Below are positions 7,710 through 48,414 of a stretch of DNA of 64,000 bases, in pieces; the stretch's first letter is position 1, and the number at the start of each line of letters is the position of its first letter. The stretch covers positions 1-64,000 of the forward strand of contig JBAMJV010008861.1 of NCBI GenBank assembly GCA_037951105.1, given 5' to 3'. The notes under the pieces are model-generated. The model was not told the DNA's origin, made no database searches, and saw only the letters and a program-made list of their open reading frames with translations. Made by a program: the position numbers and the translations under genes. Source of the DNA: Echinarachnius parma (Eukaryota; Echinodermata; Echinoidea; Clypeasteroida; Echinarachniidae).

Positions 7710-8015
7710 TTAGTACTCAAGGGGTTGATTTACGACGTCTGTGAAAGAAGAGGGAACTAAATACCCATCCTCTGATTCTGCAATGCGAGTCTCGGGTTTT
7801 ATCCAATCGTGTTCTTCAGAACCTCTTGTCAAATCGATTTTTTTTTCGGAGTTCCATCGAGACTGAAGATCAGTCTCGTGACAAAAACGTATTGGCACCT
7901 GGACATCCTTGTACTCGTACTCCTCAAACGATGTTTCAGAATCGCCATTCAGCGATAAATCGATCTGCATGGATTCCATTGCCGCTCTGTCCCCCTGTCC
8001 TGTTAGCTTGTGCAT
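7710..8015 (-). CDS. Exon 9: terminal tail exon
   Basis: Acceptor AACCTTCAAACAG, phase 0, then 101 codons and TAA. Residues 613-713 are acidic and contain F-E-E-Y-E-Y-K-D-V and D-G-Y-L-V-P (pYxxP shape), ending P-L-E-Y. These are plausible phosphotyrosine docking sites; no catalytic domain is visible. No AATAAA was found just downstream. Confidence 0.75.
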   Translation of the reverse strand: MHKLTGQGDRAAMESMQIDLSLNGDSETSFEEYEYKDVQVPIRFCHETDLQSRWNSEKKIDLTRGSEEHDWIKPETRIAESEDGYLVPSSFTDVVNQPLEY

Positions 8016-11000
8016 CTGTTTGAAGGTTTAACAAGACAGAAATGTATTGGGCAAGGATGTAGAAAACAGATTTTTCTCATGACGAATTAATTTTCTTTTC
8101 GCTTGTGTTATTTCCACACCAAACGCTGCAAACTCAAGCCACTCCCTTCCACGTATGCCTATGATTTGACCATCAAAGTCTTTTGCGGGCTGGGGTGCTT
8201 AAAGTAATCAATTTACTTTTATTCTCCCCAAAAATGAATATTTGAGACTTCAGTCATATATCAGTTTATTGTAAGATAATTGAGAAATAATGTCTGATTT
8301 TATCCCGATCGTTCGCCTGAAGTATCCCAATTCCGATACTATGGACGATTGAGTATCTGAATTCGGACACTCTTGACTACGGTCGAAAGCGTCCACAGAC
8401 ACTTTGAAATCAATCTTACATATTTCTATACTACGGGAGACATTTGAAAAGTCAAAACCCATTTCATTCTTATAGAGTCAAACCTGTCTATAGCGACCAC
8501 TCAAGGGACCGGCGAAAATCGGTCGCTATAGACAGTTGGTCGCATTAGACAGGATGGCGGCCATTTTGAATTTATGGTCGCATATCGTGACTATATGCAC
8601 ATGTTTAATTAATTGACATCTGTAAACGCACGTTTCGATAGTTAGTTACATTTAGTATTTGTTGTATGAATAACCACAATAAAACTGAAATTATGTATCA
8701 ATTGCGTTATATGTAATATGATATTAGATGTGTGTATTATCTTTCAAGTGGAATTGAAAATACAAAATGTGTCAATGTACCATTTATGATGCTTGTCATC
8801 ATGACAAAATCAGCTACGCTTATGCACAGTATAGTTTTCTATAGAATTCTGAAGTAAAAATGCAAAATGCAAAATGCAAAATAGTCACAACAATTTAGCG
8901 CAAGGATTATCATTGAAAAGATTGAGAAAAACTCCGCCTCGGCGATTAAAATTTGTTAGTGATGTTAAGTATAGTGCCTTTGTTCAACGCATTTCTGTAT
9001 CAGCACCGTGTACTGAAGAGATTGAATATGAGTTGAAGCACTTTTTGTCGGTAATTTAGCGTCTGTCTGAAGTTCATTGTCATTTTAAAAGCTTGTTTTA
9101 TGCATTGACATGCTCTGAGTTGGAGCTTTGAGCGACCAGAGGCAACATATTTTATGCCTTGGACGCTCAAACGCTAGTTTTGTGGTCGCTATACACAGAT
9201 TTATATGTGTGTCGGGACCCAAAAAGGGTGGTCGCTGGTCGCGTTAGGCAGGTGGTCGCATTACGCAGGTCGCTTAACACATAATTGTTCACGGGGGGAC
9301 CATAGAGCGGTCGTTGTGAGCAGGTGGTCGCTATAGACAGGTGGTCGCATTGGCAGGTTTGACTGTATTACCATAAGCAAAACCACAAGGTACAAGAAAA
9401 AGAGTAAAACCTCCAAGTGTATTTGGTTGGTGTGACTGAGATTTTGCCATGTATATGGCATATACTTACTTGTAGCTTCTGTGTGACTTCATCAAAATTA
9501 CTGTTTATCTCCTCATAATCCATATCTAAGTTTGATGATTGCTGCAATGAATATAAAATGTGTAGAAACAAGTTAATTATTTACTCCTTCCACTCCTCGA
9601 AATAAATCGGCCACAATCATTTGTCATTACTGAAATCAGACCAATACATATCAGGGGCGGATCTAGCTTTTTGCTAAGGGGGGGGGGGGGGGGGGGGGGG
9701 GGGGTTTGACCCAATGACGATGCGGATACTGTGTGGGTCTGGACACATGATGGCGTTTTTCTATGCACATCACATTTTCACTTGGCAGCCCAAGGGGGGG
9801 GGGGGGGGGGGGGGGTTAAACCCCCTAACCCCCCGTAGATCCGCCACTGCACATGGCAAGCAATGTATAACAATGAATTACTGTATATTTTATCTGGCAT
9901 GGGACTGGCGTCATTTCTCCCAACAGTCTGACTGTATTTATCGGCCCAGACGCTAGCAAACACATCAAATAAATTATTTTTTAATGTAATAATTGATGAC
10001 CAAAATTTAATATTGCACCATAACTGCTATTTTATATAGTAATTCAATTACAGTAAATATGTTTGTTCTACTGTTCACCTGCTGTTGCTGTCCTTGTTGG
10101 TGTGTATAGCCTCTGACTTCAAGATGGGGACACGTATTGACAGCTTGCATTTCCATGTTCTGGATGGTTTCATGAAGCTGTGACATGATCGATGTCAAGA
10201 CCGTGGGAACATTTACCACGGGGACATTCCATCGTGGTAAACCCATGGCATCAGCCGTATCAAGCCCACTGATCACAGAAGACATATGGGGAAAGTGCAA
10301 GTCTTTATGATGTGGAATTGCTTGAATGACTTGCGCAGTTCGCTGATCTTGGTTGTGTGAATGGCTTGCTGACACATTTGTATGTCTAGGACTGTAAGAA
10401 GAACTGCAACCTTTATCAAAAAAGAAGAAAAGAGCGTGTCAACCTTATTAATAATTATATTAATCTAATTTTAAACCATTGTATATATTTCTTTAAAGGG
10501 ATAGTTGGGTTTTGTTAAAGAGAGTACAGTTTTGGTCAAAATAAATTTTAGTAACCAAAACCTGCACCATTACAAACTAATTACAACCATTACAAACTAA
10601 TAGTGATAACTCTACCATGTTCGAGGGGTATTAAAACAAATACAAAGGACTAAGACATTCAAAAAGAGGGCTTGGTACGAACAGTCACGTCACGTTCACG
10701 TTCGCGTCACGTGAACGGTTCTGTACCTTTTGTGAAAAAGGTCACCCAAATCTACGAAGTGTAGGGTAAAGTGACCCAACAATTTGTCGTTTTCCATGCC
10801 GGTAAAACTCGAAGTGTCGCGTTAACCAAATCGTGACGTGAGCGTTTAATCAAGATTTTTTAAATTGCAAACGCTTGTTACTAAGACTAGACATACACGC
10901 ACAAAATGTCGACGAAAATGCCGATACCCCCAAATCAAATCTTTTCAATCATTATGTTTATAATATGTACGTGCATAATTCAGAGTAATCTGAGACGATA

Positions 11001-14000
11001 ATATGCAGTTCTGTCATTTAGGTAATGTACAACCATACCACTTGCATTATTTGTCTTGTTATTGGAGTATTTCTAAAGACGTATCGTGCGTGGATTTTGG
11101 CAAATGTTGATTTCCAGCTGAATTGCTACACGCAGCGGACAATTCAGTTCGCATACGCCTGAAGTTCCCGTGCTCGACGTCTGCGCGTACTGGCGCTGCC
11201 CTTAACGGCGTTGTATGTGCATGCCTGTGAAAGTGAGTGAGTGAGTGAGTGAGTGACTGGCAGCAGTGATCAATGAGTTTAAAAGTAATAAAACAATGAT
11301 TTGATTAATAGTGTTTATTTATGGTTATTGAATCGAGTCAATCTATAAGTCAGTCATTTAATCTAATAAACAATCAATTAATCAGTCAATCATTATAATG
11401 ACACAATCACACCAACCAATCAATATTAAATAAATCAATTAATGTATTTGACATTCGAACTAGGTAGCTACTTGTAGGCAGTGGCGTACCCAGGATTTTT
11501 TCAAGGTGTGGGTGTAGGGGGGGGGGAATATTTCGTCAGACAAATTGATGTAAGTGGGGGGAGTGTGGGTAGGGGGTGTCCGTAGAAAATGACCGCAGCC
11601 GAGGACGAGACCAGGACCGGTCACAAATTTCGAGGCCGAGACCAAGACATTTCTTGAATTATGTAAGGGGGTGGGGATGGGGGTAGGGGGTGTCCATCCC
11701 CCAGCCCCCAGGCCTGTGTACGCCTATAATTGTATATTACAGTATAGGTAGGACGGGTTCGTTCACGATTAAATTTACCGAGAATTAGTCTCTTCTCAAC
11801 GACAATTTACATTAATTTGTTTTACGCAAGCGCCAATTTACGTGAGCTTTCATGAATTGCATATAGTATATCTACAAACTGTTGGGTCACGTAACCCAAC
11901 ACGTAGATTTGGGTGACCTGTTTCACAAAAGGTGCAAAACCTTCACGTGACCTGAACGTGAACGTGACGTGACTGTTCGTACCAAGCCCAAAAAGAGCCA
12001 TTAAAACGCAAAGGGCGCTTTATAAAAACCCATTGGTTTCAACCATTTTTTATACAAACTTGTGCATGTGATGTTTTGTTAAAAACGATGATTAAAAAGA
12101 AAGATCATCAACAAATATTTTTAAAATGTGTAAGCATTTACTTTTTTCATCGGCTGGTTCAAAATTATTGAATTATTGTGGATCCCCGCAATAATTACAC
12201 ATGGTCATAATTATGGATATTCAGCCGTCTCTGAACCGATTTGATCAAAAAAAGTTACACTGTCATCAAAATAGTAAGGTCTTTCACATTTTAGGTTTGT
12301 TTTTTCGTTACCTCACACCAATTATTTTGTGTAATGCCTTCCATAACAAAACTCAAATATCCCTTTAATTTCCATTAATTTCTCCCTTATAACAATTTAT
12401 CTGTAAAACAGAATTAAACTTACGTTTAAGATAGACGGTGAGGCGAATGATGACAACGAGGAATATTGAAATACCAAGGGCTATTCCAGTAACTGATCCA
12501 GAAACTACCAGAATAAAAGCCGTATCTACTTCTGGCTTTTCTGTAGGATTCGCCCCATCATCTGTAACAAAATGGAATATAATTTGAATAGTCATAATAA
12601 AATGTCACCAGTTTGAAGTGAATGCTGAATATTTACCTCACAATACATTACGGAAACTTACAAACGAGCAAACAAATACATAACGTGAAATTCGCAAAAC
12701 AATGCACATGCAAACAAAAATCATCTATCTAATAAAACAAAGTTTGCAAGCGAAGCAAAGCATTTGATTGGTATGACAAAAACGTTCTTGCTCACGTTTT
12801 TTCCTTTTTCGCTCGGAATTGATTTCTTAGGTTTGTTGAATCCGGGGTCACATACCGTCAATAGCTACTTTTATACTCGCGCAAGTGGCAAAGTCACACA
12901 ATGAAGAAAATTAGGTGGCATAAAGGCTATTACATTTTCTAAATACCGTTGATCTAACAAGAGGTGGGGGTTGGGACCTGCATGTCCCGACTTGACATAT
13001 GCTAGTTAGCCTTCGCTTTCATTCAGAATACAATTATAATATAGGTATGGTACTCAGAGAATGAATATATATATGTTTACCGTTACCGAATGCCACTGAA
13101 AGGCCAATCGTTTTTCTGCTTTCACCAATTTGATTTCTTGCGATACAAGAAATATTCCCAAATTTCCTCGCTGAGGTTGTAGCAATGACCAGAGAGGCAT
13201 TTACAATGGTGCCATAGACACTTTCGGATCTGAAGAGATTTGTTGATTCTTGAGACGGGTTACCCTTGACAGCATTGCCTGACATGTCAATCCACGTGAT
13301 ATTTGCTCTTGGATAGGACTCACTCGTGCAGAAAATGTGAATGGTTCGTAGATCATCTTGTGTTCCCATTCCTAAGCCAATATCACGTATTTTGGGTGAA
13401 TCTGTGTCAAACAAATGAACAGAAGAACAGAAGAATTTCATTTTCTTTAAACAATTTAATCAAACATACATATAGCAATATTGCATACTACAACCAAAAT
13501 TGGAGGAACTGGTTTTTATCTCGTGTCAACGATTGACTAAACAATGACCCCGCGTTGCATAAAAAGATACAATCGAAATTTGCGCGTTTCATCCAATCAG
13601 ATGTATGCATTGTGAAAACATTATCTCACTTACATTTAAATGTAACTCACAATCGATTCTATCTCTTTTTGCAACGGGGCCAAGATGTATTATATTGGAA
13701 ATAATGTTATAGTTTTCATTGTTGATAATTGGTTCATTTTGTACGACCAAATCAGCTTGCTTAACCTTATTTCACTTGAAATAGATATCATTAAATGTTT
13801 AATTGCACGTGTTCCAATATTGAGGTCAAAGGTGAACGACGTATGAATTGATCAGTTTAGGACGGCAGTTGATATGCAAACATTTGTTTAACGATATTTT
13901 GGCACTGATTTGTACTGTTATGTGACAGCTATGGGTTTCTTCGAACAAGTCGATATCTCATTACGCTGTAAGGTGGAAGAAGAACTTTCTTACATTGAAC

Positions 14001-17000
14001 GTTAAGTTCAATCTCATCATGGACTGGGCCGACTGACGTATTTGAGGTGCAAATGTATACGCCCGAATGTTCCACTTGTAACTTGCTGATGTGTATAATT
14101 TGATCACCGGTCTTGTCCAATGTAGACTGGTCAAAGGTTGCATTGGGGTATGTTGACCAAATGAATGGACGTTTCGTCATATTGGCTGGCAGCGAGCAAG
14201 TCAGCTTGAAGTTTTCCATCCCTTCTGCAAGGTAATCTCCCTGAATATTCGATGTTATTGTAGGTGGACCTTGGATCGAGCGTTGAAAATGTAGATACAA
14301 ATGAGTTTTAGTTGAACACTTTTTTTTTTCAACGATGACATATTTCAAATTTAGTTTCAGATAATATAATGATAACTCAGTTTGTTCTGATTATTATAAC
14401 AAAAATTAAACTTCTGGTGGACACGGTGGTTAATCATTAATATCAGTGAAGATCATTCACATAAAGGCTTTCACCTCCTACCGGTCCCAATTTATACACC
14501 TGTGGATAAATTATCTTGGTGAAGGACATACGCGGTGGATATGGTTCGAACTCGGTTTTATAGAACACTGCATTTATCCTAGTTATTTCGATTTAAAACA
14601 TCGGTGTCTTAGCTCAAAACGTAGAAAGATGACGCATACAAGTCGCCCAATTTATTAAAACCCATGCAAAACCGTGCAAACCGTGCAAAACAGTGGTTTA
14701 TAACACGGCTCTGGTAAATTCAGTAACGTGATTGGTTAAATCCTGTCACGTGACTATTCATTAAATTTCAACAAACATGCACGACCGTGCAAAACAGGGT
14801 GCAACCCCATGCATTACTCGTTTTCGTTGCGCAACTTTTTGCACGGCTATGACGTCACAATGCTTGTTTACATAGTTCTATCGGAGACAAACTTGCGAAA
14901 GTGATAAAAAAAAAAGATGGAAAAAGCTTCGTTTTGTAAATTATCGGTATTGTAGTAAATCAATCTTAGCAGTTTCGTAAATTATATGGTATGTGGTTTG
15001 ATATTGGTAAGTTTTGGAATGGAAATGCATAAAATGCTTTGATAATTCTCATTTTACGGGAATTTTTTTTCGGCAATTTCTGGTGGACTGCGTTTGATCT
15101 GCTGAGCTTCACATTCAGTGAAGCGAGTGCAGGTAGTCGGATGGTGAATTTTATAAATTCATATTCACACTCTAGAGGGTAGATAGACTGGGTTTGTGGC
15201 ATGGCAAGTCTGTTTTAAAAAATCCAGCAAAATAAACGATTCCGTGGTTGAGCTCGTGTTATAAAACAAATAATACACGGTCTCAATTATCGTGCATCAT
15301 GTAAATGCATCGCGCTCTCGGCTCTGTTAGCTGTGCGTTGCGCACTCGGCTACGCCTCGTGCGCAACGCACAGCTAACAGAGCCTCGCGTGCGATGCATT
15401 TACACAATGCACTCTAGACAGTGTATTATTTGTATAGCAACCGGGGTGCATTACTCGTTTTCGTTGCACAACTTTTTGCACGGTTGATGACGTCACAATG
15501 CTTGTTTACATAGTTATACAAAGACAAATTTGAGAAAGTGATAACAAAATAGATGGAAAATGCTTCGTTTTGTAAATTATCTGTTCTGTAGTAAATAAAT
15601 CTTAGCAGTCTCGTAAATTATATGGTATGTGGTTTGATATTGGTTAGTTTTGGAATGGAAATGCATCAAATTCTTTGATAATTCTCACTTTTACGGGAAA
15701 ATTTTCGGCAATTTCACATCGACTGCATTTGATCTGCTGAGCTGCAGAGTCAAATTCAGTGAAGCGAGTGCAGTCGTGATGATTAATTTTGTAAATTCCT
15801 AATAAATTCATACTCTAGAGAGTAGATAGACTGGGTTACTAATTGTGGCAAGACTGTTTTCAATAATCCAGCAAAATAAAACAATCCGTGGTTGAGCTCG
15901 TTTTATAAAACAAATAATACTTCGGTCTTATTATCGTGCGACATGTAAATGCATCGCACTCTCGGCTGTGTTTGATGTGTGCATGCGCACTTGGCTTCCG
16001 CCTCGTGCGCAACGCCCAGCTAACATAGCCTCGCGTGCGATGCATTTTCACAACGCACTCTAGACCGTGTATTATTTGTATAACAATGGCGTGCGTTATC
16101 AACGCTATGACAGGCGGAACGTGCGATGTATCAAGCACCGGCTTGTTAACAAATGACAAAAAAGAAAACCTGACATGGTGTCACTCACAGCGCTCTAAAA
16201 CAAAAACTACACGACCAAATTGACTGTTCTTGGTGTCGTTGTTCATTTGAAAAGACACCCTATCCGATGGACATAATACCTTTGTTACTATATTTTGGGA
16301 AGTGCCCCGTTCCGTTTGTTTTGGGCCACCCTGTATGTTATTATTATTATTATATATTATAAGTGCCCTCCTATACCAACACTCATCTATCCTTTTAATG
16401 ACTGACTGAATGCATAATGAGCAAATCAAAATTTCAAAATAGTTTATTTCAAATGGCTACACAGGGACGTCGATCACGGGGGGATGGAGGGGGGGGGGGG
16501 GGTGGATATATGCTCCCAATATGTCAGGTGGGGGGATAGCCTGTATTATCACACCCCCCCCCCCCCCCCCCAATATTTGGGGTTCAAAAATATATAATAA
16601 CATTAGAATTAAGAAGCAATGCCCCCTCTCATGAATGGAAGTTCTTACTATAGTCTTCTTTAAACCCCCTTTTGATAATGCTGAACTGCCCAAATCCAAA
16701 ATTTTCCGGGCCTGCGCCCCTGGAACCCCCATTAAGGTTATTTGACCCAGTCCCAGCCCTGTACTCATTAAATAGTTTTATTCAGGACTTCTCTCTTGGC
16801 AAACTTTCAGGCGATCCTGGCCCACTGTGCGTCTGCGCTTCGCTCACTAAAATTGAGCTAACTATTCAATATATAATTGTATTTCTGGGCATTACAAATC
16901 CCAAAGCTTCCGGGGGCTTCGCCCCCTGGACCCCTAATAAGCTTTCCAATGTGGGTATCCATTGACTTATTCTATTCAGGGTTCCATCAGGATGATTGCA

Positions 17001-28337: not shown

Positions 28338-28378
28338 GGAGTCTAGTTGTATGGAGATATTCCACAGAGGATTTCACG

Positions 28379-28406
28379 ATGGCCAGAGTATTCTTTTTGG
28401 CAATAG
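28379..28406 (+). CDS. Exon 1 (coding part): signal peptide start
   Basis: Starts M-A-R-V-F-F-L-A-I and a split Val codon, donor G-GTAAGA, phase 1. Joined to the Ig exon it gives a 20-residue leader ending ..D-V-L-A. The exon itself begins at 28338 after TATTTTACAG, so its first 41 nt are 5' UTR. An upstream ATG at 28351 in another frame overlaps the true start. A likely untranslated exon ends at 28180 (ATG-GTAAGC). Confidence 0.75.
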
Positions 28407-37400: not shown

Positions 37401-40400
37401 TTAGTATGTGATATATCTTTGATTATTTCCGAAAGGCGCTAAATCCACTTACCATGAAAATTGAGGTAACGATATCAGCATTAGTAAGCTACGCGAAGTT
37501 GTTAAGAAATACTAATTTCAAGATGAATTAGACAATACAAATTTGAATATGGAACGTTCCATATTCATATTCTCATAGGTATTATTATGTAGAAATTTGG
37601 TCAAGGAAACCTGAAACCTGAAATTTTGGAATTGAAGGGATATTACATGTTGGGTCAAACTGAATTTTAGTAACCCAAACCTGCACCATAACAATACAAA
37701 CACTCCACCATGCTCGAACGTTAAACAGACTTACAAACAACTAAGTAAACAGCCTGTTATCATTAAAAAAAGAGGGCGCTTTCTAAAAGCGAATTCGTTT
37801 AGATAATTTTTTAGAAGAAAAATGTGCATGTGATTAAATGGAGAGATCATCAACAACTAGTAATAAACGTATTTTGTAAAATTAAAAAAAGTATAAGCAT
37901 TTTATTTTTGTTCATCATCGAATAAACCTGGGGCCCCAGGTTTATTCCGATTTGAAATATTTATTGATATTTCAGCTGTTTCTAAACTGATTTTGATCAA
38001 ATAAAGTTTATTCTGTCATTAAAATTGTTTGCTCTTTCAGATTCGACATTAAGTTTGTCATTACCTCACAAAAATATCATTGAAGCGCCCTCTATACTAA
38101 CACTGAACTACGCCTTTAAGATCTGAATACATTTACTTGATTCAAATTGGACAATGATATTGTTCATAGTAAGACAATCACTTGTACCATTGATGAATTC
38201 ACGTATGTGCTCATAATTATGTTTCATATTTTACACCAGACATGGATTACAATGTACTTCTGCGCTTGAACAGTTTTAAAAATAGAATTTAAAAAGTTTG
38301 TGGTACAGCAAACATACTGTCAAGGGTTATTGCCATTGTTTTTATTTCAGTTATTGAATATCTCTGTTGTCATTTAAATTTTTTTTTTTTGTATAAAGAA
38401 GAGATGGTTCATACTGAAGGTCTCATTTATTTGTCTCGTACGCGTCATACCGTTTTACATTTCAGTGTATTCCATAACAAGTTGATGACTGTGCCATATA
38501 AGTGGCCATTATTAGCACTACCATTACTATTATCTTTCGTGATGTTTGTATAGGTTATCGTTGGCACTTTCGTTGTAAATGACTATTAACATAGGCTAAT
38601 ACAAGTCATCGGGGATGTTTATAACAGTTTATATGGATCGTGCATGATGTACCTGACAAAGTATGACAATATGTTAGGTTTTTAACCTAATGCCATGCCT
38701 GGCCTTGTCAACGAGGCTATCGTGTATGTTTATGACATTTTTTTCATTCTAAATACAGAAAGTACTGTGAAGCCTGATGCAGAGGGCAGCGGGAATAGCT
38801 ATCCTTTGATTGCGGTAAATAATATTTCTATAATTTCTCCTCAGTAAAGACATTTTTAAACTGATATTCGTGAGCAAAAAACACACAGTTATTTTGACCG
38901 CTCGAATGTAAAAAATTATGTTGGCGTATGATGTTTATACTGATGGCGTCATATCTAGCATTGCTGGCGTGTATGCATATGTTCCATGTAAAGCGAGGAT
39001 GTAACAGTCTTATGTTATCACTTTATTCTGAATACCTCACTTGTATCGTGTTTGCTATGTAACGTTTGGTTGAAATAAATATTCCTTTGTTGATAAAGAT
39101 ATTTCAACATTATTTATCGCACTTACAAAATTACTTGTTTCAATAATACAGGCGAACGAACAAAAGAATGACCATGCTGACGTGAACATCGACGAAAATA
39201 ATACTGCTCCTTTGATCACAGTAAGGCCTATTTTCTTTATTCTCTAGAAACATATTATTGATATATCAATACATTTTTCTGCCATCCGATTCAACTCCGC
39301 TCGAGTGTGAGCAATTATGATGTGTGGCGTATCCGTTTATTATGTTTAAAACAAAAATCTTATTACTAGGTCATGTGACATTCATTTACTACGGAATTTC
39401 ACACATAGGCGTACCCAGGGGGGGGGGGGGGATTTAACCCCCCCCCCCCCCCCTCCCCCTTTGACCCAAAAATTACTATTTTCAAATTTTAACTGGTCTC
39501 GAGACCAAATTTTAGCGATCTCGACCGTCATATTCGATGATCTCGGCCTCGAAAAGTGCCAAAAACCGTGGTCTCGAAAATGTTGATAATTGTTGGTCTG
39601 GGCTGCGAAACTTTTTCCACGACTACCCCCCCCCCCCCCCCCCCCCCCCCACAGGGTTCTCAACCACTGGGTCTTGGTATCGGTCTCTAAAATTGTGGAC
39701 CGGACCTGGTCTCGGCCTGGAAAATGTCAACAATTCGCGATCTCGACTGTGAAAATATTCTACGACTACCCCCCCCCCCCCCCCCCCCGCTTACCGGATT
39801 CTCAACCACTGGGTCTTTGTCTCGGCCTCGAAAATTGTGGACCAGACCTGGTCTCGGTCGAGAAAATGTTGAAGGTACTTGGTATCGGCTTCGAAATTTT
39901 TCTACGACTACCCCCCACCCCCCCCCCCCCTGACAGAAATTTTGTCTGAAGAACCCCCCCCCCCCTTAAAAAAATCCTGGGTACGCCACTGATTTCACAC
40001 ATCACTCAGTTGTTGCATATGACAAAAAAATTCTCATAGAATCATTTATCAGTTTAATTGGATGAAGGGAGATACTTTTAGTATTTGTAACGGTCTGTAC
40101 GCGATATGTATATATTAATCTTGGAAGGAAAGATGTGTCGCTAATGTGCGCACCGATATACATACTTGTGAATCTGCTTTTTATATTTGTTTTAATATTT
40201 GTTTCATGATTTTTCCTAATCTATTGTAAATATAGTAATTTGTTTAGTAATGTTTGTTTCTTATTATGTTAATAACTTGTAAATATTGTGATCTGCCTTG
40301 ATTTTTTCAATAAAACACACAAATATAAAAAATACTTAAAACAAAATTCCTTTTAAGCTGTGTATTGTTATCAAAGAGTATATTGTTTTTGATAAACATA

Positions 40401-43400
40401 ACAATATAATCAATCTATATCGTTAATTTTGTTTTCTTTAATACCTATTTGGTATCGTGATTTTATTCTTGATTTATCGTAAGTATATAAAATATCAATT
40501 TCAACCGAAAGTTATTTAAATATTTCACCACCATTCCATGTTCTAACAAAATGCCTTTTGTCAATGACACAGACATTTGAAGGTTTCATGGACTTATTGC
40601 GGGGACTACTTGGTGAAAGCTCTGCGGCAATGATAAAGGTATTGCAGACATTACAGCAAGCCGAGTTAAGCAACATGCCGATGCTTTCTAGAATGCAATT
40701 TTGTGTGAATGTAAGTATATAATTGAAACTAGTGAATGGAAATGACACGGCTACCATAACCGCCTTTACTAATTATGGTCTATTTAGGTGACTACTGATT
40801 TAAAATCAGTAAATAATTAAATATACCTTTTTTAAATAGTGAATATGAATTCGTTGGCACAAAGTAGAGGAAGAGAGGCCATGATGATTGAGGGAAGCAT
40901 GCATTTGAGAGCATAATATAAAGTCATATAGAGCGCATGAGCATAAAAAAGAGGGGAGCATAATAATATGACTCGTGTACTCAGCACATAAAGTGTACTC
41001 ATGTGCATTTCGAATCACACAAATGACTTTTTGGCCTGTCGTGTGTTGGTCATGCAATCAATTCCACTTGAAGATCTCATTAAAGGGGAAGGAACTCCTA
41101 GCCTTTTGACTTACTGGATGTGATGAGAGCATAACTCTTGTAATTAGTTTCTAGTCACTTATTTCCTCATGAATATTTCTAATAATGAAAATAATAAATA
41201 TTTTATGGCCCACGTCTGCTTTCAATGCCAACAAGAGGCGGCCATTTCTTCAACTTCTCGCGGTGAAATGACGTGTCAGGCGGAGAACACAATAGCGGAT
41301 TACGATAATGTTATTGTGTTCTCCGCCTGCCACGTCATTTCACCGCGAGTAGTTGAAGAAATGGCCGCCTCCTATGGGCATTGAAAGCAGACGACAGTGG
41401 TCCATAAAATATTGATTATTATTATTCATCTAGAATAGAACACATTAAATTTTCATGGTCAAACGTCAAGGGCATAATGATAAAAATATATATTTAAAAA
41501 AATAAATTTACCTCTCGCCATTCTCGCCGATACGTGGACAACAAAATAGGAGGTGATAATTGCTGCCGTGCATGCGTCGGCATGCACCAAGACGATAATC
41601 GAAAGCGTGCAAACAAATTGTAGGTTCCGTTAAGGACTTCGGGCAGCCTATTTTTACCTCCGCCAACGAATTTGAGCTCAATGTCACGCAAACAACAACA
41701 TTCAAGTGGTGGCGGAGGTATGCACTCCTAGGGTGCACTGAGTCTAGTTTAATATTGTAGCAGAAATCTCGATAAAAAATATTCAAAGCCAGTTCTAGCT
41801 ACCAAGAAGAAGTTCAGCACATGCCAAACTATCAGTGTATTTCAACTATCATGACGATTCCACTTGTGGTTTTCAGTAAGATTCATGTGGACAGTTTTTA
41901 TTTTATCAAAGCAAAATGTGGACATTCTTCTACAAATACAACATTCAGGAACTTCTGAAACGTTCGCATGAGATATATGAGAAACTGTTCGACAAGAAAT
42001 CAAATTTAAAGCGTCACAAACTAACAACCCATTTAGTACATTTCGTGTTAAATTTGCCAGAAACAATTTAGAAGAAGTGACAAGTTCAAGTATGATTGAA
42101 CAAAATCACTTTATCTCATATACAATATAAAACAGCCCATTTCAAACCAATAACAAATTATAACTAAATTTTGAATTCGTCACTTTTGACGAATTAAGGT
42201 ATACGTATCGATTTCTTATGATAAAAGCATGATTCCAAAAATAACTACTCAATCATCATATAAATAATAAATATTATTACATCCCCCGGCAAAAGAAAAA
42301 AACAAAGAAGAAAGAAAAAAGTAAAAACAAATATTGCCTTGGATTCGAACCCACGACAATTAGACAGATCTAGAGTGACAGATTCGTACCACGACACCAG
42401 CCCTTGTTCACTTGACAGAGATAAACAAATGATGGAATATGAGTAAAAGATTGCACTGTGCATTTGCCAATACAAGATATAATGTTAATGCGTGGAAGAC
42501 TTATCATAATTGTATAAATACGCAATATTAACTTTAACGCTCAATATGGTGACCTTATAACATTTACTTGGCATAAATGAGGAATGAATTCGTATCTACA
42601 ACTCATAATCTTCCGAATATTAAAATAAAATTGGGTGTTTGTGGACTTTTAAAAAAGTTATGGCCGAATAAAAAAACAATGTTTTTACCATATTTGGCCA
42701 ATTTGCGTGTGCGTGTAATTTTGACTTTGACGCGCGCATACTCCGTTATTAAGAGTCAACAATGACTCAAATTGATAGGGTGAGTTGAGGGATGTATCAG
42801 GATTGGAAAACATGTGGAAAATCGGCGTTTTTCTTATATATTTGCGTTACGCGCGCAAATACGCGTGGCAGACTAATCACAATTGTATAGAGACACATTA
42901 TAGTTCCTGAATTCATATTATTAGATAATTTCAACCACCGCACTTTTAGAGTATAACCTCAGCTACAACATATCGAAATCTGGGAGAAAATAAACGGAGA
43001 ATAAGCGAGATATGGTCGGAAGTCTGCTGTGATTGATTTCAAAATCGATTAAAATAAGTTAAAATGCGCATTTTCAACTTTAACCGTCGATATGATGACT
43101 TTATAACATTTACTCGGCATAAATGAGGTATGAATTCGTATCTACAACTCATAATCTATCCGAATATTAAAAGAAAATTGGGTGTTTGAGGACTTTTTAA
43201 AAAGTTATGGCCAAATAAAAAAAACAATGGCTCAAAATGATAGGGTGCAGTAAGTATGGCAAAACATGTGAAAAAACGACATTTTCCTGTTCATTTGCGT
43301 TATGCGCGCGGAAATTTTTGAAACGCTTAAAATTGTCTGAAACATATAGTAAATTACTCGGGTTAGGGTTTTGAGCATTTAAAAATTTTTTTTTTTTAAT

Positions 43401-46400
43401 TGACGGACGCATACGCGCGTGTCTCCGAGTGTAATTGCATGCGCATGAGCTTAAAAGATGAATATTGACCTGATAAATATTGATGCGAAATTTGAATTGA
43501 AATTGATATTTCATGACTGAGATATGATTATTAAAATTTGACAAAATGGCGTCTTGATGACGTCATAGTGATGTGACGTCACTGAAAAGCTTCGCAGTTC
43601 TAAGTTAGATCATGATCTATCATCATGTGACGATTCATGACAATTGATTCATGCGATCTTGAGATATGCGACGGACAAAATCGGAAGAATAATAATAATA
43701 CAAATTCGAACGAAATCAATAGGTTATACGTATGATATACGTATAACCTAATTAAGGATACTCATACATACATGTAATATTATACGGTAGAAGAAATGTT
43801 CTCCAATTTTAAATGTTACCTTTCTCGCATTTCGTTATATTTTGACATATTTTTGGCACACCTTATAGTGTTGTTTTAAATAACCGTCATGGTATGTACA
43901 TTACGGAAAATGTGCAATAAGAAATGGTTATTATACAGGGTGTCTCAGAAAGAATGCAACACCTACGATCGTTAATTCCATCAACATCATCGACCAAATG
44001 TCATTGTTGTTTTGTTTGATTGGGTAGAACATTCTTTTTCCAACAAAATGATACCATAAGCATTGATATTGGGTAAGGCGTTTGGATCATAGGGCCATTC
44101 TTCTGAGGCAATGTCGTTTCCTAAATTTGCTACTTTTTTCGTCTCCAGCGATCCTCGGAACACTGAGGCATTCTCGCCCCACGGGGTACTCGATTACGCA
44201 ACATTGTCTTCTTTATCAACGGGAGAGCAGTCATGCGGTTCTTCTGTCTATGGGAGGCCGTGGGGCGAGAAAGTCTCAGTGTTCAGAGGATCGCTGGAGA
44301 CGAAAAAGTAGCAAATTTAGGAAACGACATTGCCTCAGAAAAATGGCCCTAGGATCCAAACGCCTTACCCAAAATCAATGCTTATGGTATCATTTTGTTG
44401 GAAAAAGAATGTTCTACCCAATCAAATAAAAATAATGACATTTGGTCGATGATGTTGATGAAATTAACCATCGTAGGTGTTGCATTCTTTCTGAAGAATT
44501 TGTTGCATTCTTTGCTACTTTTTCGTCTCCAGCGATCCTCTGAACACTGAGACATTCTCGCCCCACGGCCTCCCATTGACAGAAGAACCGCATGACCCCG
44601 TATAAAGAATATTTACGCAACCGTACAGAATAGAGACTTACCAAATATAAAACATAAGAAATTTTGGTGAATAATGAATTTAAGAAATCTAAAAATACAT
44701 ATTTTAAACAGAAGTTTGATAGTGCTAAGAGTAATATGAAGCACACTTGGACTATGCTCTCACTTTCCATGATTATAATACAAGATCTGCATCGAACTAT
44801 CATTTACCTAAAGTTCGAACAATGGTTTATAAACATTCTATATTTTATAAACGTATTATGATTAGGAATTACGTCACTTTAGAAATACACAGAAGTCCAA
44901 CTCTCAATACTTTTAAACGAAAACTCACAGCACTGTTTTTGTTACAGAATGTATAGATATGCAATGGTTAGGGCATGTATTTGTGTTTGTGTGGGTATGT
45001 ACTCGAGTGTGTGAATTTGTATGTATAGGATATAGGCTGCATTTATAGGATACCTTGTTTGCAATATATGTAATATATTTTTGGATCTTAAAGTGTCTTT
45101 TGGTTTAATTCCACTTACACTACAATATTTACTTTCTTAATCGGGGTCAACACCATATAAGGCTTCTGCACTTTTAACTTGGCCCCACATTCTCAATTGA
45201 TTTAATTTGCTATTTAATTATGTTTGATATTTATTTTGTAAAACTTACATTATATAACAAATAGTTTAGGTATTGTATCTTCTGATGTTTTTTTAAAGAA
45301 GAATGTAAATAAACTGAAACAAAATGAAATAATAATGCATAACTTCACGCGTCTTGGATGTAAATTGATACATATACATCGACTTGGATGAAACTTATCA
45401 TGATCTCTTGTATTGTGAAAGCCCAAATGTTGTCCAAAAAGATGATTGCACAAAGTTACATTATCTTATATGCAACGTAGCAAGTTATGTACCAAAATAA
45501 AGGTCCAATCAAGGTCAATCGATTATGCATGTAACATTTTATTGGGTGGAAAAGATTTTTCTTCAATTACAATATTGGAATAGTACTTTTTCGGTCTCAT
45601 TTTGGTCATATTTTAACCCACTTGTTTGACACACCTACATAATTGTTTTAAAACAGGAAATGTGGAGTCCTGGTAACATTTATTTTGTTTAATGTTTACC
45701 TTCATGTGTGTTGGATGTCAATTCGTAACAATATTTTGACTTGAATCAAATTTGTCATGATTTCTTGAAAAAAAAACACTCAGTGTAACGTTTACGGGCC
45801 CAGTTCAAAACACACGGCCATATACGTTTGACAATCTTGCACATTCTAAATGTAATAAAAACATAAGGTGTTGTACAAAACAATATTATCAATCTAAAGC
45901 GAAGTAACATAAGCATTTTATGTGGACTTTATATCTTGGTTGATAAGAAGAAAAAAAAGGAAGTTAAGCGGGACCAGTACTTCGCTCTTGAAGAAACCTT
46001 ACAATTAGCTATTTAATTATACATTTGATTATGTTCATGTTATCAATTAATCACTGGAATATGAACAGTTCTGTTGTAACTTGGATCCAGTGTGTAATAA
46101 TTATATTGATTGATTTATTTCAGAAAGCAGTTGCTAAGGAATCGGTACTTGACGCCTTTGTCTGGTATGTTGCTGAAATTGTCCGGTGCATAGACCAATT
46201 AAGTCCGAGGTTGGCTCTTGAACTAACATCCGACATCATATTATCCGCGGAGTACATCACATCAGAAGGTTCGAAGAAGACTGCATCAGTTTTTTCTCTT
46301 GAACAAACAGATGACAGCGGGACTGACATGAATAAGGTAGTTATATTCGCTGTTTGGGAACAGAACCCAATACATGTTCAATGTCAGCAATGTATAATGA

Positions 46401-48414
46401 CAATTATACTTATATAATTACCGATATTTCTTGGGTTTATTAAGAGATTAAAAGAGTATCATTTTGTAGAATCAATTTATCGTTCATGTGCAATATTGAT
46501 TTAATTACTATAATGTAACTTTGTAAATTAACGATATTCAATTAGGACAATTCAGAAATAAATCCTTGGCTTCGAACAAACGCCAAACAAAAAAGGCTCA
46601 TAGTGATGACTTCAACTATTCTTTGTTAATATTGCCTCCTTATTTCTCCCTGACAGAGCTATTTTGAAGTGGTCCAGTCTGCATTTATGAATTTGCTCGT
46701 TGCCTTGCAACACAACATCAAGGATACAGACGTCGTGAAAGAAAGGACTACCAATGTCACCAAGATGATGAAGCTTTATTTCAGGGATAAGAAACGAGAG
46801 ACACTAGAGGTAATGGACTCTGAACTCATGTCTAAAGAGGTATTTTAAAGAGGGATAATTCATCGATTGAAAACAATGGACACAATACAAATTATACAAA
46901 TAGTGTAAACAGTTTATAAACAAAATGTTCAAACATAACTTAAATTAACCATTATACTTTAAATGTGTTTATGATATGATATGATCAGAATAACACAATT
47001 CAGACATAATATATCTACATGGCCAAAAGCTGATTTAAAGAGAAATTTAATTACAAACATGTTTAATCGATGTTACCAAGGATCGTAATCATTTACAAAA
47101 ATATAATACCGGTATACACAGTTAACCCTATTCCCATTGCGTTATTTTGATCACTTGAGTCCATTAGGGGAGGGGGGCATTTTGGCCCCCCCCCCCCCCT
47201 CAAATCTTGGCAACGAATGGACCGATTGACTTGAAAATTGGCACATACGTAAAACAAGTCAAGTAGAATAAGAATTAAAAAAAAAAAAAAAATTGGCCAT
47301 TATTTTTTTTAAAAATAATTAATTGAAATTTTGAATATGCAAATTGTTGACGAATTTGGGGGAAAATTGGGATTTTCATCTAAAATCAAGAGAAATTAAA
47401 GGATTTCTTCAGGTTTTCTGTAAAAATACTTTCAAATGATGTAATTCATCATATCCATGTTTTGTTATGGTGATAAAATATATCACTAATTTGCATAAAT
47501 TATGCAAATTAGTATTCCCGGATTTACCCACATTGTTTTCATTCCTATGTATTTTATTGTTTTTATTGTTGTTTTTTTAGTTTTGTTTTAGAAGAATTTA
47601 TCTCTGAAGTGTATGAATTAAACTAATAACAAAGAAATAATCCAAATTGTAATTCAATGTAACAATTATAACAGATATTGAGTTAACACGGCATTGGATA
47701 TATATGAATTACATAGAAACCTGTACAAAAATTGCAGTTTTTTGTGACGGTTGAGCAGTTATCGACCTCTAAAATCAGTTCTACATGTCCGACCGGGGTG
47801 AATTATATATCAAAACATGCGGGAGACTTGAGAGAAAAAAGTCATGAAGTTTGAACGTAAAATTCAAATCGGTCTAGATGGACGTCGAAAAAAAAAACGA
47901 CAGGGGGAGGGGGCCAAAATGGCCCCCCCCCCTGGTGGGATTAGGGTTAAGTACGCAAGGCTATATCTGTCCATATAACATGTAATAAGACAATTTATAT
48001 ATGCATATGATTTTTAGTCATGAGTTGAGAGATTAAAATGAAAAGGATACAAATATATGCTGGCAGGATAACTCTACCAAGAAATATCATGTAACCCATG
48101 ATTAAATGTTCATACTTCAAACAAGACAACAGTTGGGACTTTTTCTCGTAGATTGCAGGCATTTGTTATGTTGTCGAGAATTGAACAAGTTTAATATATT
48201 CGTGTTTCTCCTCGCACCATTTTCTTTTCAGACAACACCATCAAATTGGGCTGGATCGAGTGACGGGGCCGACTTTTTTGCAAAAATGTGTGTACAATAT
48301 ATCGACAAGTGCTTGAAATTTAATGACAGAATACTAATGCGCTACAAAATACTAAACATCATGATCCAGTCGTCTGATACAACAAATGGCAACAATACAT
48401 TATTTGCAGTATAA
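28379..48414 (+). CDS. Ig-sushi-sushi transmembrane protein with novel helical tail (11 exons)
   Basis: CDS = join of 28379-28406, 34694-35017, 35371-35559, 36485-36676, 37236-37346, 38759-38814, 39152-39220, 40573-40710, 46124-46336, 46657-46809 and 48232-48414. All junctions are GT..AG, phases match (1,1,1,1,1,0,0,0,0,0) and 1656 nt gives 551 residues plus stop. Order: signal peptide 1-20; V-like Ig (C33, W46, C97 in D-S-G-V-Y-E-C); sushi 1 (120-179, six Cys); sushi 2 (184-243, six Cys); transmembrane helix about 254-276 followed by R-R-K; tail 277-551. The tail begins with two short exons that both end P-L-I-x, then about 228 residues rich in Leu, Met and Ala that look helical and match no family I know. 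Ig plus CCP ectodomains are known in complement and adhesion receptors; the role here is inferred to be cell-surface recognition. The Ig exon has a close paralogue at 3005-3343. Confidence 0.8.
28576..28890 (-). mobile_element. tRNA-like element flanked by a 35-bp direct repeat
   Basis: AACATATAAAGAAACTGACC and the following 15 bases occur at 28576-28610 and 28856-28890 with one mismatch. Between them, on the minus strand, is a tRNA-like module (28697-28622): TAGCTTAGTCGGTAAGAGC (box A), a stem CCGG..CCGG and GGGTTCGAATAC (box B). The module is at the 3' end of the insert on that strand, unlike ordinary tRNA-headed SINEs. Confidence 0.68.
28900..30145 (-). mobile_element. Decayed LINE reverse transcriptase
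   Basis: The minus strand, across frameshifts and stops, reads L-A-P-T-L-F-N-I-Y and then L-N-Y-A-D-D-L-C-F-T-T-Q (the RT catalytic YADD) near 30060-29950, and further down L-N-T-R-C-R-Y-I-T. Plus-strand frames here are shadows. Located in intron 1 of the Ig-sushi gene. Confidence 0.78.
30303..32541. mobile_element. 2.2-kb composite fold-back element, TA-flanked
   Basis: Ends CACTGTTGGTCATAAAGTTG and its near-complement CAACTTCATGACCAACAGTG, each next to TA. Left 30480-30760 is complemented by 31660-31930 (TTTCGTTGGAA, GCACAAGCATCGTT). A 145-bp block (TCTAGGACATCCACRATTAA..CACTAT) appears directly at 30770-30915 and 31477-31622, and a related inverted copy at 31200-31450. TIR sequence and TA flanks suggest a Tc1/mariner-type end; there is no intact transposase. 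Confidence 0.75.
32890..34315. repeat. Tandem array of a ~400-600 bp unit (GGCGGCCATTTTG)
   Basis: Two landmarks alternate: type A (GGCGGCCATTTTGAATTT..AATTGTGCCC at about 33014, 33612, 34010) and type B (CAAATTTCC..GGCGGCCATTTTGGAT..TTTGCA at about 33187, 33795, 34193). A-to-B spacing is constant at 173-183 bp. An extra partial unit at 33400 enlarges the first period. Intron 1 of the Ig-sushi gene. Confidence 0.8.
34355..34500 (+). repeat. Interspersed repeat, inverted copy at 57839-57980
   Basis: ATGATGCGTTTTCCAATTATATA, CATATTTTTGTGAACTT, GGAATACTAAAGATGTTAC and GGGTGGTGGTACCCTT are the complement of the 57.8-kb copy. It ends about 195 bp before the Ig exon of the plus gene. Confidence 0.82.
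34694..35017 (+). CDS. Exon 2: V-like Ig domain
   Basis: Acceptor CTTTACTCAACAG, donor CTAG-GTAAAT, phase 1-1. Residues 10-117: end of the leader, then C33, W46, R-F-S-I-T-D-S-E-G-L and D-S-G-V-Y-E-C (C97). Sequons at 26 (NSS), 49 (NAS), 88 (NKS) and near the end (NLT). The reading frame is 82 % identical over 94 residues to the orphan exon at 3005. Confidence 0.9.
35371..35559 (+). CDS. Exon 3: sushi/CCP module 1
   Basis: Acceptor TACGTTCTAG, donor GAAG-GTAACA, phase 1-1, 63 codons. Cysteines at 120, 136, 148, 152, 166 and 179 with the CCP core C-x3-C-x2-G-Y-x-L-x-G. The usual Trp before the last Cys is replaced (G-Q-L-A-N-V-R-P-Y-C). Six rather than four cysteines suggests a third disulfide, as in some selectin-like CCPs. 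Confidence 0.87.
36050..36484 (+). promoter_or_regulatory. Long pyrimidine-rich tract before sushi-2 exon
   Basis: More than 400 nt dominated by C and T (CCCTTTCTC, CCTCTTTTACCCC, CCCTCCCTCTC) leading straight into the exon 4 acceptor. Candidate splicing enhancer or PTB-type site; it also produces a spurious 140-codon frame. Confidence 0.5.
36485..36676 (+). CDS. Exon 4: sushi/CCP module 2
   Basis: Acceptor CAACACTGCAG after a >400-nt pyrimidine-rich stretch, donor AATA-GTAATA, phase 1-1, 64 codons. Cysteines 184, 200, 212, 216, 232 and 243, core C-D-F-E-C-T-T-G-Y-S-L-N-G. Again the consensus Trp is missing (D-I-P-A-F-P-Q-C). Same six-Cys layout as module 1. Confidence 0.87.
37236..37346 (+). 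CDS. Exon 5: transmembrane helix
   Basis: Acceptor GCCATTTTAG, donor GAAG-GTATTA, phase 1-1, 37 codons. Residues 254-276 form a hydrophobic helix with G-T-G-I-G-A, flanked by R/N/R outside and R-R-K-N-E inside, which sets an N-out orientation. It has no in-frame ATG, so an ORF scan misses it; phase and position after the sushi exons identify it. Confidence 0.82.
37632..38120. mobile_element. MITE, family 1
   Basis: TTGAAGGGATATTACATG ..ACTACGCCTTTAA ends with internal TTTTAGTAACCCAAACCTGC, CTCCACCATGCTCGAA, GAGGGCGCTTTCTAAAA and AGCGCCCTCTATACTAA. Intron 5 of the Ig-sushi gene. Confidence 0.78.
38759..38814 (+). CDS. Exon 6: short juxtamembrane tail exon (PLI motif)
   Basis: Acceptor CTAAATACAG, donor GCG-GTAAAT, phase 1-0. 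Nineteen residues, E282 to A300, ending N-S-Y-P-L-I-A. Resembles the end of exon 7 (N-T-A-P-L-I-T), suggesting an exon duplication. Y296 is followed by P-L-I. Confidence 0.65.
39152..39220 (+). CDS. Exon 7: short acidic tail exon (PLI motif)
   Basis: Acceptor CAATAATACAG, donor ACA-GTAAGG, phase 0-0, 23 codons (301-323). Asp/Asn/Glu-rich, ending N-T-A-P-L-I-T. Phase-0 symmetric, so it can be skipped without a frameshift. Confidence 0.65.
39405..39990. repeat. GGTCTCGGC minisatellite between GGCGTACCCAGG ends
   Basis: Opens GGCGTACCCAGGGGGG and closes CCTGGGTACGCCACTG, i.e. inverted ends. Inside, four units of TTCTACGACTACCCCCC, TCTCAACCACTGGGTC and GGACCTGGTCTCGGYC. C and G runs at 39418, 39627-39650, 39770-39788 and 39911. 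Intron 7 of the Ig-sushi gene. Confidence 0.8.
40573..40710 (+). CDS. Exon 8: start of the helical intracellular region
   Basis: Acceptor CAATGACACAG, strong donor AAT-GTAAGT, phase 0-0, 46 codons (324-369). Leu/Met/Ala-rich with heptad-like hydrophobic spacing (F-M-D-L-L-R-G-L-L, then M-I-K-V-L-Q-T-L-Q-Q). No family recognised. Confidence 0.68.
41160..41425. repeat. Palindromic MITE, ~100-bp arms
   Basis: GTCTGCTTTCAATGCC..GGCGGCCATTTCTTCAACT..CGCGGTGAAATGACGTG..GGCGGAGAACACAATA is complemented on the right after a 20-bp loop (GCGGATTACGATAATG). Ends in an AT-rich AATATTTTATGG / CCATAAAATATT pair. Confidence 0.88.
42335..42412 (-). repeat. tRNA-like relic
   Basis: Minus strand GGGCTGGTGTCGTGGTACGA (box A-like) followed 40 nt later by GTGGGTTCGAATCCAAGG (perfect box B). 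The anticodon arm does not pair well, so a SINE head or a dead tRNA rather than a working tRNA gene. Confidence 0.45.
42480..43320. repeat. Tandem duplication, ~545-bp period
   Basis: TAACATTTACTTGGCATAAATG and TGAATTCGTATCTACAACTC, AAATTGGGTGTTTG.GGACTTTT and AAGTTATGGCC.AATAAAAAA recur in order at 42556-42685 and 43098-43230. Confidence 0.78.
43721..43748. repeat. Short perfect palindrome
   Basis: GGTTATACGTAT, a 2-4 base loop (GATA-type centre), then ATACGTATAACC. Confidence 0.75.
43938..44500. mobile_element. Palindromic element, ~230-bp arms
   Basis: GGTGTCTCAGAAAGAATGCA..ACATTTGGTCGATGATGTTG arms; TTGCTACTTTTTCGTCTCCAGCGATCCTC is complemented around a CCCCACGG / CCGTGGGG centre. A third, partial copy of one arm follows at 44505-44600. 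Frames here are palindromic shadows. Confidence 0.84.
44640..45045 (+). mobile_element. LINE remnant with internal deletion
   Basis: K-N-T-Y-F-K-Q-K-F-D-S-A-K-S-N-M-K-H-T-W (44664 frame) is the pre-RT segment of CR1/L2-like LINEs; in the next frame H-D-Y-N-T-R-S-A-S-N-Y-H-L-P and T-L-N-T-F-K-R-K-L are the extreme C-terminus. The reverse transcriptase between them is deleted. Confidence 0.8.
45340..45780. repeat. Imperfect ~360-bp duplication
   Basis: CACGCGTCTTGGATGTAAATT..CGACTTGGATGAAACTTATCATGATCTCTTG near 45345 resembles TGTGTGTTGGATGTCAATT..TTGACTTGAATCAAATTTGTCATGATTTCTTG near 45705. Confidence 0.55.
46124..46336 (+). CDS. Exon 9: helical intracellular region, part 2
   Basis: Acceptor TGATTTATTTCAG, donor AAG-GTAGTT, phase 0-0, 71 codons (370-440). 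Amphipathic start (V-L-D-A-F-V-W-Y-V-A-E-I-V-R), later an acidic/Ser stretch (T-D-D-S-G-T-D). A 5.4-kb repeat-filled intron precedes it. Confidence 0.72.
46657..46809 (+). CDS. Exon 10: helical intracellular region, part 3
   Basis: Acceptor TTCTCCCTGACAG, donor GAG-GTAATG, phase 0-0, 51 codons (441-491): F-M-N-L-L-V-A-L-Q-H then K/R-rich. A second in-frame donor 30 nt downstream (AAAGAG-GTATTT at 46840) would add ten residues beginning V-M-D-S-E-L. Confidence 0.72.
47118..47951. mobile_element. TIR element with poly-C/G subterminal runs
   Basis: Left ACAGTTAACCCTATTCCCA..GGGGGCATTTTGGCCCCCCC and right GGGGGGCCAAAATGGCCCCCC..TGGGATTAGGGTTAAGT are inverted. Non-coding, AT-rich core. Intron 10 of the Ig-sushi gene. 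Confidence 0.72.
48232..48414 (+). CDS. Exon 11: terminal exon
   Basis: Acceptor ATTTTCTTTTCAG, phase 0, 60 codons and TAA. Begins T-T-P-S-N-W-A-G, then a K/Y/I-rich amphipathic stretch (M-C-V-Q-Y-I-D-K-C-L-K-F), ending L-F-A-V. No AATAAA seen close by. Confidence 0.72.
   Translation, partial: TTPSNWAGSSDGADFFAKMCVQYIDKCLKFNDRILMRYKILNIMIQSSDTTNGNNTLFAV

Follow-up and report, generated by a model that had tools for sequence, protein, structure and literature searches.

A duplicated head-to-head pair of immunoglobulin-type receptor genes in Echinarachnius parma

In Botryllus, the FF (fester) and FcoR receptors are encoded as gene pairs and are co-expressed, as described in the main text of PMC12065747. 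According to the same description, FF comprises a signal peptide, an Ig domain, one sushi domain, three transmembrane (TM) segments, and a short tail, while FcoR comprises an IgV domain, a sushi domain, two C2 Ig domains, a TM segment, and a tail with an ITIM, a hemITAM, or a Y-x-x-I/L/V motif (PMC12065747). That main text does not use "head to head," "bidirectional," or "orientation." Adjacent genes that are transcribed apart from a shared region are described more generally as divergently paired genes, as outlined in PMC2670823. For echinoderms, no such receptor pair was named in the titles and abstract openings of the literature searched, and the germline-expansion section of a 2026 review of echinoderm immunity deals with Toll-like, NOD-like, and scavenger-receptor-like families, not with paired Ig receptors (PMC13428168).

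Here, we analyzed a locus of Echinarachnius parma whose closest known counterparts are the Botryllus fester/FcoR pairs, likened by the architecture described in PMC12065747 and not by sequence. The window is a stretch of 64,000 nucleotides (C8845:1-64000 of 75054), and the genome searched was the assembly of 1.2 Gb in 14790 contigs. In that assembly, COX1, identified by Pfam, reads in the echinoderm mitochondrial code (AAA as Asn and AGA as Ser at conserved sites), and frames that appear to encode ND4L and COX2 follow it on one strand, an arrangement typical of sea urchins and sea cucumbers; these mitochondrial genes agree with an echinoderm origin.

Structure of the two receptor genes

The initial annotation recognized two complete, in-frame receptor models lying head-to-head with about 1.2 kb between them. 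Both were rebuilt independently from the DNA as spliced models; all introns are GT-AG, the phases chain, and the frames are free of stops. The start codons lie 1179 bp apart. The genes are referred to here as MINUS and PLUS.

MINUS runs on the minus strand from 27199 to 7710 in 9 exons and encodes 713 aa. Its introns are in phase 1 as far as the first tail exon, after which they are in phase 0, and its layout by exon is a signal peptide, four Ig exons, a TM helix, and three tail exons. Exon 1 (27148..27199, MIFNIAVFILTFILHHF), which ends at a phase 1 GT-AG intron, holds the start codon and a signal peptide with 76-88% identity to the signal peptides of three other pairs. Ig1 in exon 2 (26064..26381) matched Pfam Ig_3 at 6.9e-10 on the reading frame and has 43 other strong matches in the genome. 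Ig3 in exon 4 (13994..14269; Ig_3 9.8e-6) and Ig4 in exon 5 (13087..13401; 2.4e-5) are each below Pfam's own cut-off when searched alone, whereas the spliced ectodomain matched Ig over three stretches with an E of 4.8e-22. Exon 6 (12424..12561) encodes the TM helix, with a hydropathy of 2.48 across 19 residues. The best solved relatives of the ectodomain in PDB are neurotrimin, other IgLON proteins, and adhesion Ig proteins.

The description of MINUS as a four-Ig receptor stands in full for three of the domains; by Pfam, the Ig fold signature is present in Ig1, Ig3, and Ig4, as well as in the Ig of PLUS. Exon 3 (25320..25652, minus strand) gave no Ig match in the Pfam search, and its two-sequence AlphaFold model, which places strands near the cysteines, was of low confidence (pLDDT 53) and too poor for a fold search. 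The count of four therefore depends in part on the spacing of the cysteine pair (157/211) and on the position of Ig2, which is probably a divergent Ig domain.

The cytoplasmic tail of MINUS is encoded by exons 7 (10079..10410), 8 (9470..9541, with DYEEIN), and 9 (7710..8015, with EEYEYKDV, DGYLVPS, and the stop). Its tyrosine motifs are YEEI at 597, YKDV at 647, and YLVP at 697, and YEEIN, EYEY[KE]DV, and GYLVP are conserved among MINUS paralogs, in which exon 9 is 66-83% identical. The ITIM pattern is [ILVS]-x-Y-x-x-[LIV], and an ITAM consists of two Y-x-x-[LI] motifs spaced 6-12. The MINUS tail of the window showed no ITIM match and no ITAM spacing; its two Y-x-x-I/V motifs are 50 residues apart. 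Neither the MINUS tail nor the PLUS tail matched any Pfam family when the spliced models were searched.

PLUS runs on the plus strand from 28379 to 48414 in 11 coding exons and encodes 551 aa. Its layout is a signal peptide, an Ig domain, two sushi domains, a TM helix, two short exons, and four tail exons. The exon with the start codon and signal peptide (28379..28406) is alignable in four pairs. The V-type Ig exon (34694..35017) matched Pfam V-set at 1.7e-8 and gave 54 strong match rows in the genome, its own included. Two sushi exons follow (35371..35559, cysteines 120-179, and 36485..36676), each with six cysteines, where four are usual. On the spliced ectodomain, Pfam identified the V-set (E 1.4e-7) and two sushi domains (E 3.5e-6), the latter with 27.8 bits against a cut-off of 20.7 for PF00084 over two stretches; each sushi exon alone is below the cut-off. 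The sushi region matched CR1, CR2, and factor H in PDB. The Ig-sushi-sushi order given by the initial annotation was confirmed on the spliced protein. The TM exon (37236..37346) reaches a hydropathy of 2.83 across 19 residues, and the two juxtamembrane exons (38759..38814 and 39152..39220) are joined in phase by GT-AG introns.

The PLUS tail is a conserved domain of 228 aa, whose four exons (40573..40710, 46124..46336, 46657..46809, and 48232..48414 with the stop) recur genome-wide. It had been called an unknown helical tail. A known family was rejected, with none found in Pfam for the window's own tail; among seven tail members, nine Pfam families each matched one member (best, MitMem_reg at 3.5e-4), and PDB gave no match (best E by profile, 0.48). 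Its helical character is suggested by a single proxy, the amphipathic-helix moment, which is 3 SD above shuffles for the PLUS tail and 0.7 for the MINUS tail.

Intron 1 of PLUS is 6.3 kb long in the window, and its counterparts on C7483, C8723, and C4563 measure about 0.8 kb. Within the window's intron, at 30300-34320, the segments 30428-30807 and 31622-31986 form an inverted repeat (84%), and 32860-34319 holds direct copies that have diverged (69-72%). Other features of the window are a tandem array at 20502-20913 of about 37 copies of the 11-bp unit TTACTGGTTTC, open in several frames, and two frames that by eye resemble non-LTR reverse transcriptase, at 50747-51735 (minus) and 21783-22361 (plus), mutually about 35-61% alike. 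Rfam and tRNA searches of the window gave no match.

Paralogous fragments of both genes had been noted at the window edges. Both were found, although they are weaker than that description: one is a solitary exon and the other a pseudo-exon. At the left edge, an intact PLUS-type Ig exon (about 3004-3342, plus strand) shows 90% DNA identity to its paralog over 309 bp. In the stretch from 3.3 to 7.7 kb, no sushi, TM, or tail exon was recognized, so the idea that this edge holds another complete PLUS gene was rejected. Exons of a similar subtype occur at C2072:47638 and C11564:47921, with no sushi matches among those listed, and in each case a MINUS gene has its Ig4 exon 7.6-10.4 kb away. The left-edge exon may be a conserved short family member and not debris. 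At the right edge, a degenerate MINUS-type Ig3 paralog with in-frame stops (about 60502-60806, minus strand; 69% DNA identity) lies downstream of PLUS and convergent to it.

Recurrence, orientation, and divergence in the genome

Both genes belong to large families. The PLUS tail matched at least 126 exons (150 of 183 candidates scored, E up to 0.01), the MINUS ectodomain at least 106 (101 of 235 scored), and the PLUS ectodomain at least 151 (150 of 595 scored). With all first-look candidates scored at E up to 1e-5, MINUS Ig1 gave 47 matches from 105 candidates and the PLUS Ig gave 56 from 136; the Ig exon of each gene has more than 40 strong relatives, probable alleles included. For the orientation count, exons with E above 1e-8 were left out (C1201, C3041, and C8607 for MINUS; C11270 and C8994 for PLUS), retaining 44 of 47 and 54 of 56, and two C2360 pieces of PLUS Ig were merged, giving 53. 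MINUS-type Ig1 was located on 41 contigs, PLUS-type Ig on 48, and both on 24.

The initial annotation had proposed a search of the assembly for further pairs and had named their absence as evidence against it; further linked pairs were found. All 8 of the 8 neighboring MINUS/PLUS Ig exon pairs separated by up to 10 kb are divergent, i.e., head-to-head, as are 10 of the 12 separated by up to 20 kb. Against an expectation of one in four, the latter gives a binomial p of 3.8e-5, although related units are not independent. At larger distances the bias fades, to 15 of 28 within 50 kb and 16 of 30 over all distances, with 6 of 18 divergent among neighbors 20 to 75 kb apart, which is barely above one in four. 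The non-divergent neighbors comprise 8 tandem cases, all from distant subfamilies, and 6 convergent cases, 3 of them on close-clade contigs.

The arrangement depends on relatedness. Counting the window, 13 MINUS Ig1 exons show at least 77% identity. A divergent PLUS-type Ig neighbors 12 of them, in nine cases within 20 kb; the neighbors on C11564 and the second on C2072 are at 21-22 kb, and that on C2360, whose PLUS Ig is broken, is at 41 kb. The sole exception is C10294, where no PLUS-type neighbor was found. In contrast, only 4 of 15 neighbors with both members distant (66% identity or less) are divergent. Therefore, the head-to-head unit is assigned to the close clade, and the distant subfamilies appear to lack it, unless their true partners were missed. 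Family-wide, a divergent partner within 20 kb exists for just 10 of 44 MINUS Ig1 and 10 of 53 PLUS Ig exons. There is no partner at all on 17 of 41 MINUS contigs and 24 of 48 PLUS contigs, which short contigs may or may not explain. The idea of a divergent, co-amplified pair is thus supported for the close clade, through recurrence, conserved intergenic DNA, and parallel divergence, and appears not to extend to most of the distant subfamilies. Within this one clade, the two-gene unit stayed together, head-to-head, during duplication.

The exon order of the window recurs on C7483, C8723, and, for the part read, which excludes the MINUS TM and tail, on C4563. Recurring exons on other contigs mostly show 50-88% protein identity. 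C7483 carries two MINUS-type genes. The second (68.9 to 52.2 kb) has a tail resembling that of the window, while the first has a different TM and tail that are 89% alike those of C8723 over the first tail exon. Exon 7 of the window is 64-69% identical to its own tail class (C8723, C7483) and 32-38% to the other. This second class, located at about 28.6-17.6 kb on C7483 and about 30.3-37.9 kb on C8723, has VGYEEIN where the window has MDYEEIN, and VGYEEI fits the ITIM pattern, whereas the window's sequence does not. Given this fit, the units may differ in signalling sign. A search with exons 8-9 of MINUS, in which 38 of 38 candidates were scored, found 14 matches spread over 11 contigs. This is below the number for Ig1, and the MINUS tails therefore probably fall into several classes.

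The distances among MINUS Ig1 exons and among PLUS Ig exons correlate, with a Mantel r of 0.80 for 14 pairs and 0.73 for 11 close pairs; 0 of 20000 permutations reached either value (p = 5e-5). Since parallel divergence is expected from block duplication of a pair, this is no proof of interaction. Between C8723 and C8163, similarity is 94% for MINUS Ig1 but 79% for PLUS Ig; therefore, their partners may have been exchanged or converted. C4563 and C9922, which are 99% and 95% identical, may be alleles. The assembly is fragmented and probably partly allelic, and some of the recurring contigs are probably alleles; sushi matches of equal or near-equal score also occur on the contig pairs C1441/C2536, C1620/C1934, and others. 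Such contig pairs resemble alleles or recent duplicates, and the copy numbers counted here set upper limits on the number of loci.

Positive selection on the Ig exons, suspected from the protein versus DNA identity of the left-edge copy, was rejected at the whole-exon level. That copy has an NG86 dN of 0.095 and a dS of 0.173. Among 11 close pairs, the median dN/dS was 0.49 for MINUS Ig1 (54 comparisons) and 0.46 for PLUS Ig (55), with maxima of 0.82 and 0.83, respectively. These values below 1 indicate no sign of diversifying selection at whole-exon resolution.

The shared upstream region

The region from start codon to start codon (27200..28378) is conserved in three other head-to-head pairs, in which the corresponding distance is 2522 bp (C7483), 3995 bp (C8723), and 2428 bp (C4563). 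The window's 1179 bp are alignable over 78%, 74%, and 66%, respectively, compared to only 24%, 21%, and 14% for introns of up to 1.3 kb. Under a stricter placement, the values for the same three contigs were 78%, 61%, and 66% for the intergenic region, 13%, 10%, and 2% for all introns, and 77%, 77%, and 36% for exons, the 36% reflecting the partial C4563 sequence compared. Two short introns (38815-39151 and 46337-46656) are likewise alignable, at 99-100% in two pairs, and the aligned intergenic blocks are just 69-82% identical; constraint on the region is therefore likely but not proven. Ahead of the PLUS start codon, all four aligned regions have a splice donor and acceptor in common, which delimit a probable intron in the 5' UTR (28181..28337, plus strand), so PLUS probably has an extra non-coding first exon.

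A 16-bp element, GAGGCAAAGTTCACAT (27971..27986, plus strand), is identical in the four pairs read, where it sits 404-420 bp from the PLUS start codon. It has 10 exact copies in the 1.2 Gb, against 0 for the reversed-pattern control. Nine of these are flanked by a pair's divergent Ig exons and are on the strand of the PLUS gene (C1626, C2072, C4563, C7483, C8163, C8511, C8723, C8845, and C9922). The tenth copy is on C10294, a contig that yielded no PLUS Ig, and lies upstream of a MINUS Ig1 at a distance of 9.4 kb. The element was chosen from four of the ten copies; the other six played no part in that choice, although C9922 may be an allele of one of the four. The exact 16-mer is absent from the divergent neighbors on C3488, C11564, C10385, C1991, C2360, and C4570 and from the second on C2072. 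The element may resemble a nuclear receptor site of the DR1/HNF4 type.

Interpretation and comparison with known systems

We favor, with a probability of roughly 0.55, the interpretation that this locus is a duplicated two-gene receptor unit whose products would occur together in a cell and cooperate at its membrane as a recognition repertoire. From the shared upstream region, two type I receptors would be transcribed: MINUS, with four Ig domains and a tyrosine-bearing tail, leftward, and PLUS, which combines a V-type Ig with two sushi domains and a conserved helix-rich tail, rightward. Both would be produced in the same cells and act jointly at the membrane. PLUS would offer the IgV-CCP recognition face. 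MINUS would signal, a Src-family kinase phosphorylating DYEEIN and the nearby YKDV and YLVP so that SH2 proteins could dock. Through duplication, such units, with their varied ectodomains and two or more tail classes, would supply a germline repertoire for recognizing self, microbes, or damaged cells. Here, we infer co-expression, a physical complex, phosphorylation, and immune use from the domain content, the tail motifs, and the Botryllus parallel.

Much of the same evidence would also fit two independent receptors with a common bidirectional promoter, duplicated together in one block but having separate ligands and pathways. Conserved upstream DNA and block duplication suffice for this without joint function, each gene has its own long tail of differing content, and the possible partner exchange between C8723 and C8163 suits independent receptors. 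Nevertheless, the arrangement persists in each of the 8 pairs found within 10 kb, whereas short introns have lost most of their similarity. This may point to a requirement for co-expression, but not for contact, and we regard independence as a real but doubtful possibility. It is unlikely that MINUS and PLUS form a linked receptor-ligand pair, in which the products of one haplotype would bind in trans as self markers in allorecognition. At self/non-self loci, receptor-ligand linkage is expected, and the linked, duplicated Ig ectodomains with N-glycosylation sites agree with this, as does the sequence difference between the probable alleles C4563 and C9922; against it, both proteins are long-tailed and there is no excess of amino-acid changes.

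The similarity of the MINUS ectodomain to neurotrimin, IgLON, and adhesion Ig proteins raises the option of adhesion or neural-type IgSF molecules expanded for non-immune reasons. We consider this quite improbable; more than 40 Ig exons per type (alleles included), degenerate copies, several tail classes, and a PLUS sushi region closest to complement receptors and factor H are all more usual for recognition families. Finally, exons of unrelated genes might have been chained by eye, or only assembly duplicates observed, and the assembly does seem to hold allelic contigs, with near-identical match sets on some contig pairs. The recurrence of exon order and orientation on several contigs, mostly at 50-88% protein identity and thus far beyond allelic difference, makes an artefact very improbable, and this explanation appears largely contradicted already.

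As an extension of the favored two-gene unit, we tentatively propose an echinoderm germline repertoire of heterodimeric receptors. In it, a promoter that is bidirectional and specific to the unit would tie a multiplied IgV-sushi receptor to a dedicated signalling partner with four Ig domains; partners could be exchanged, tails could switch between activating and ITIM-like forms, and PLUS would contribute a novel kind of intracellular domain. For finding such units in related genomes, the 16-mer and the tail module provide a genomic handle.

Vertebrate activating and inhibitory IgSF receptors carry ITIMs or ITAMs. The present locus resembles them in its Ig ectodomains, type I TM segments, and SH2-ligand tyrosines, and the other tail class (C7483, C8723) fits V-x-Y-x-x-I. 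In contrast, MINUS of the window has neither an ITIM nor ITAM spacing, and its partner is a divergent gene with sushi domains. PLUS resembles the complement receptors and factor H through its sushi region, which matches CR1, CR2, and factor H in PDB, but it has only two sushi domains, with six cysteines each, behind an IgV domain. Compared to divergently paired genes with transcription start sites under 1 kb apart, as outlined in PMC2670823, the MINUS/PLUS pairs have start codons 1.2-4.0 kb apart and belong to a multiplied receptor family.

With the Botryllus FF/FcoR pairs, as described in PMC12065747, the locus shares a multigene Ig-sushi type I receptor adjoining a long-tailed Ig receptor with tyrosine motifs, as well as the presence of many pairs and of more than one kind of tail. 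The MINUS/PLUS unit may work like FF/FcoR, while its domain architecture departs from that description at two points. PLUS has two sushi domains, one TM segment, and a conserved 228-aa tail, unlike FF, and MINUS has four Ig domains and no sushi, unlike FcoR, yet its tail carries YEEI and YKDV. Pairing of the FF/FcoR type is indicated for the close clade, where 12 of 13 MINUS Ig1 exons have a divergent PLUS-type neighbor, but family-wide a divergent partner within 20 kb is seen for just 10 of 44 MINUS and 10 of 53 PLUS exons. With a recurring divergent pair in another deuterostome, the question of whether paired-receptor recognition predates the chordates or arose repeatedly becomes directly testable. 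If the proposed heterodimeric repertoire is real, the MINUS/PLUS unit would represent a second deuterostome paired-receptor system beside Botryllus fester/FcoR, either convergent or derived from a common deuterostome ancestor.
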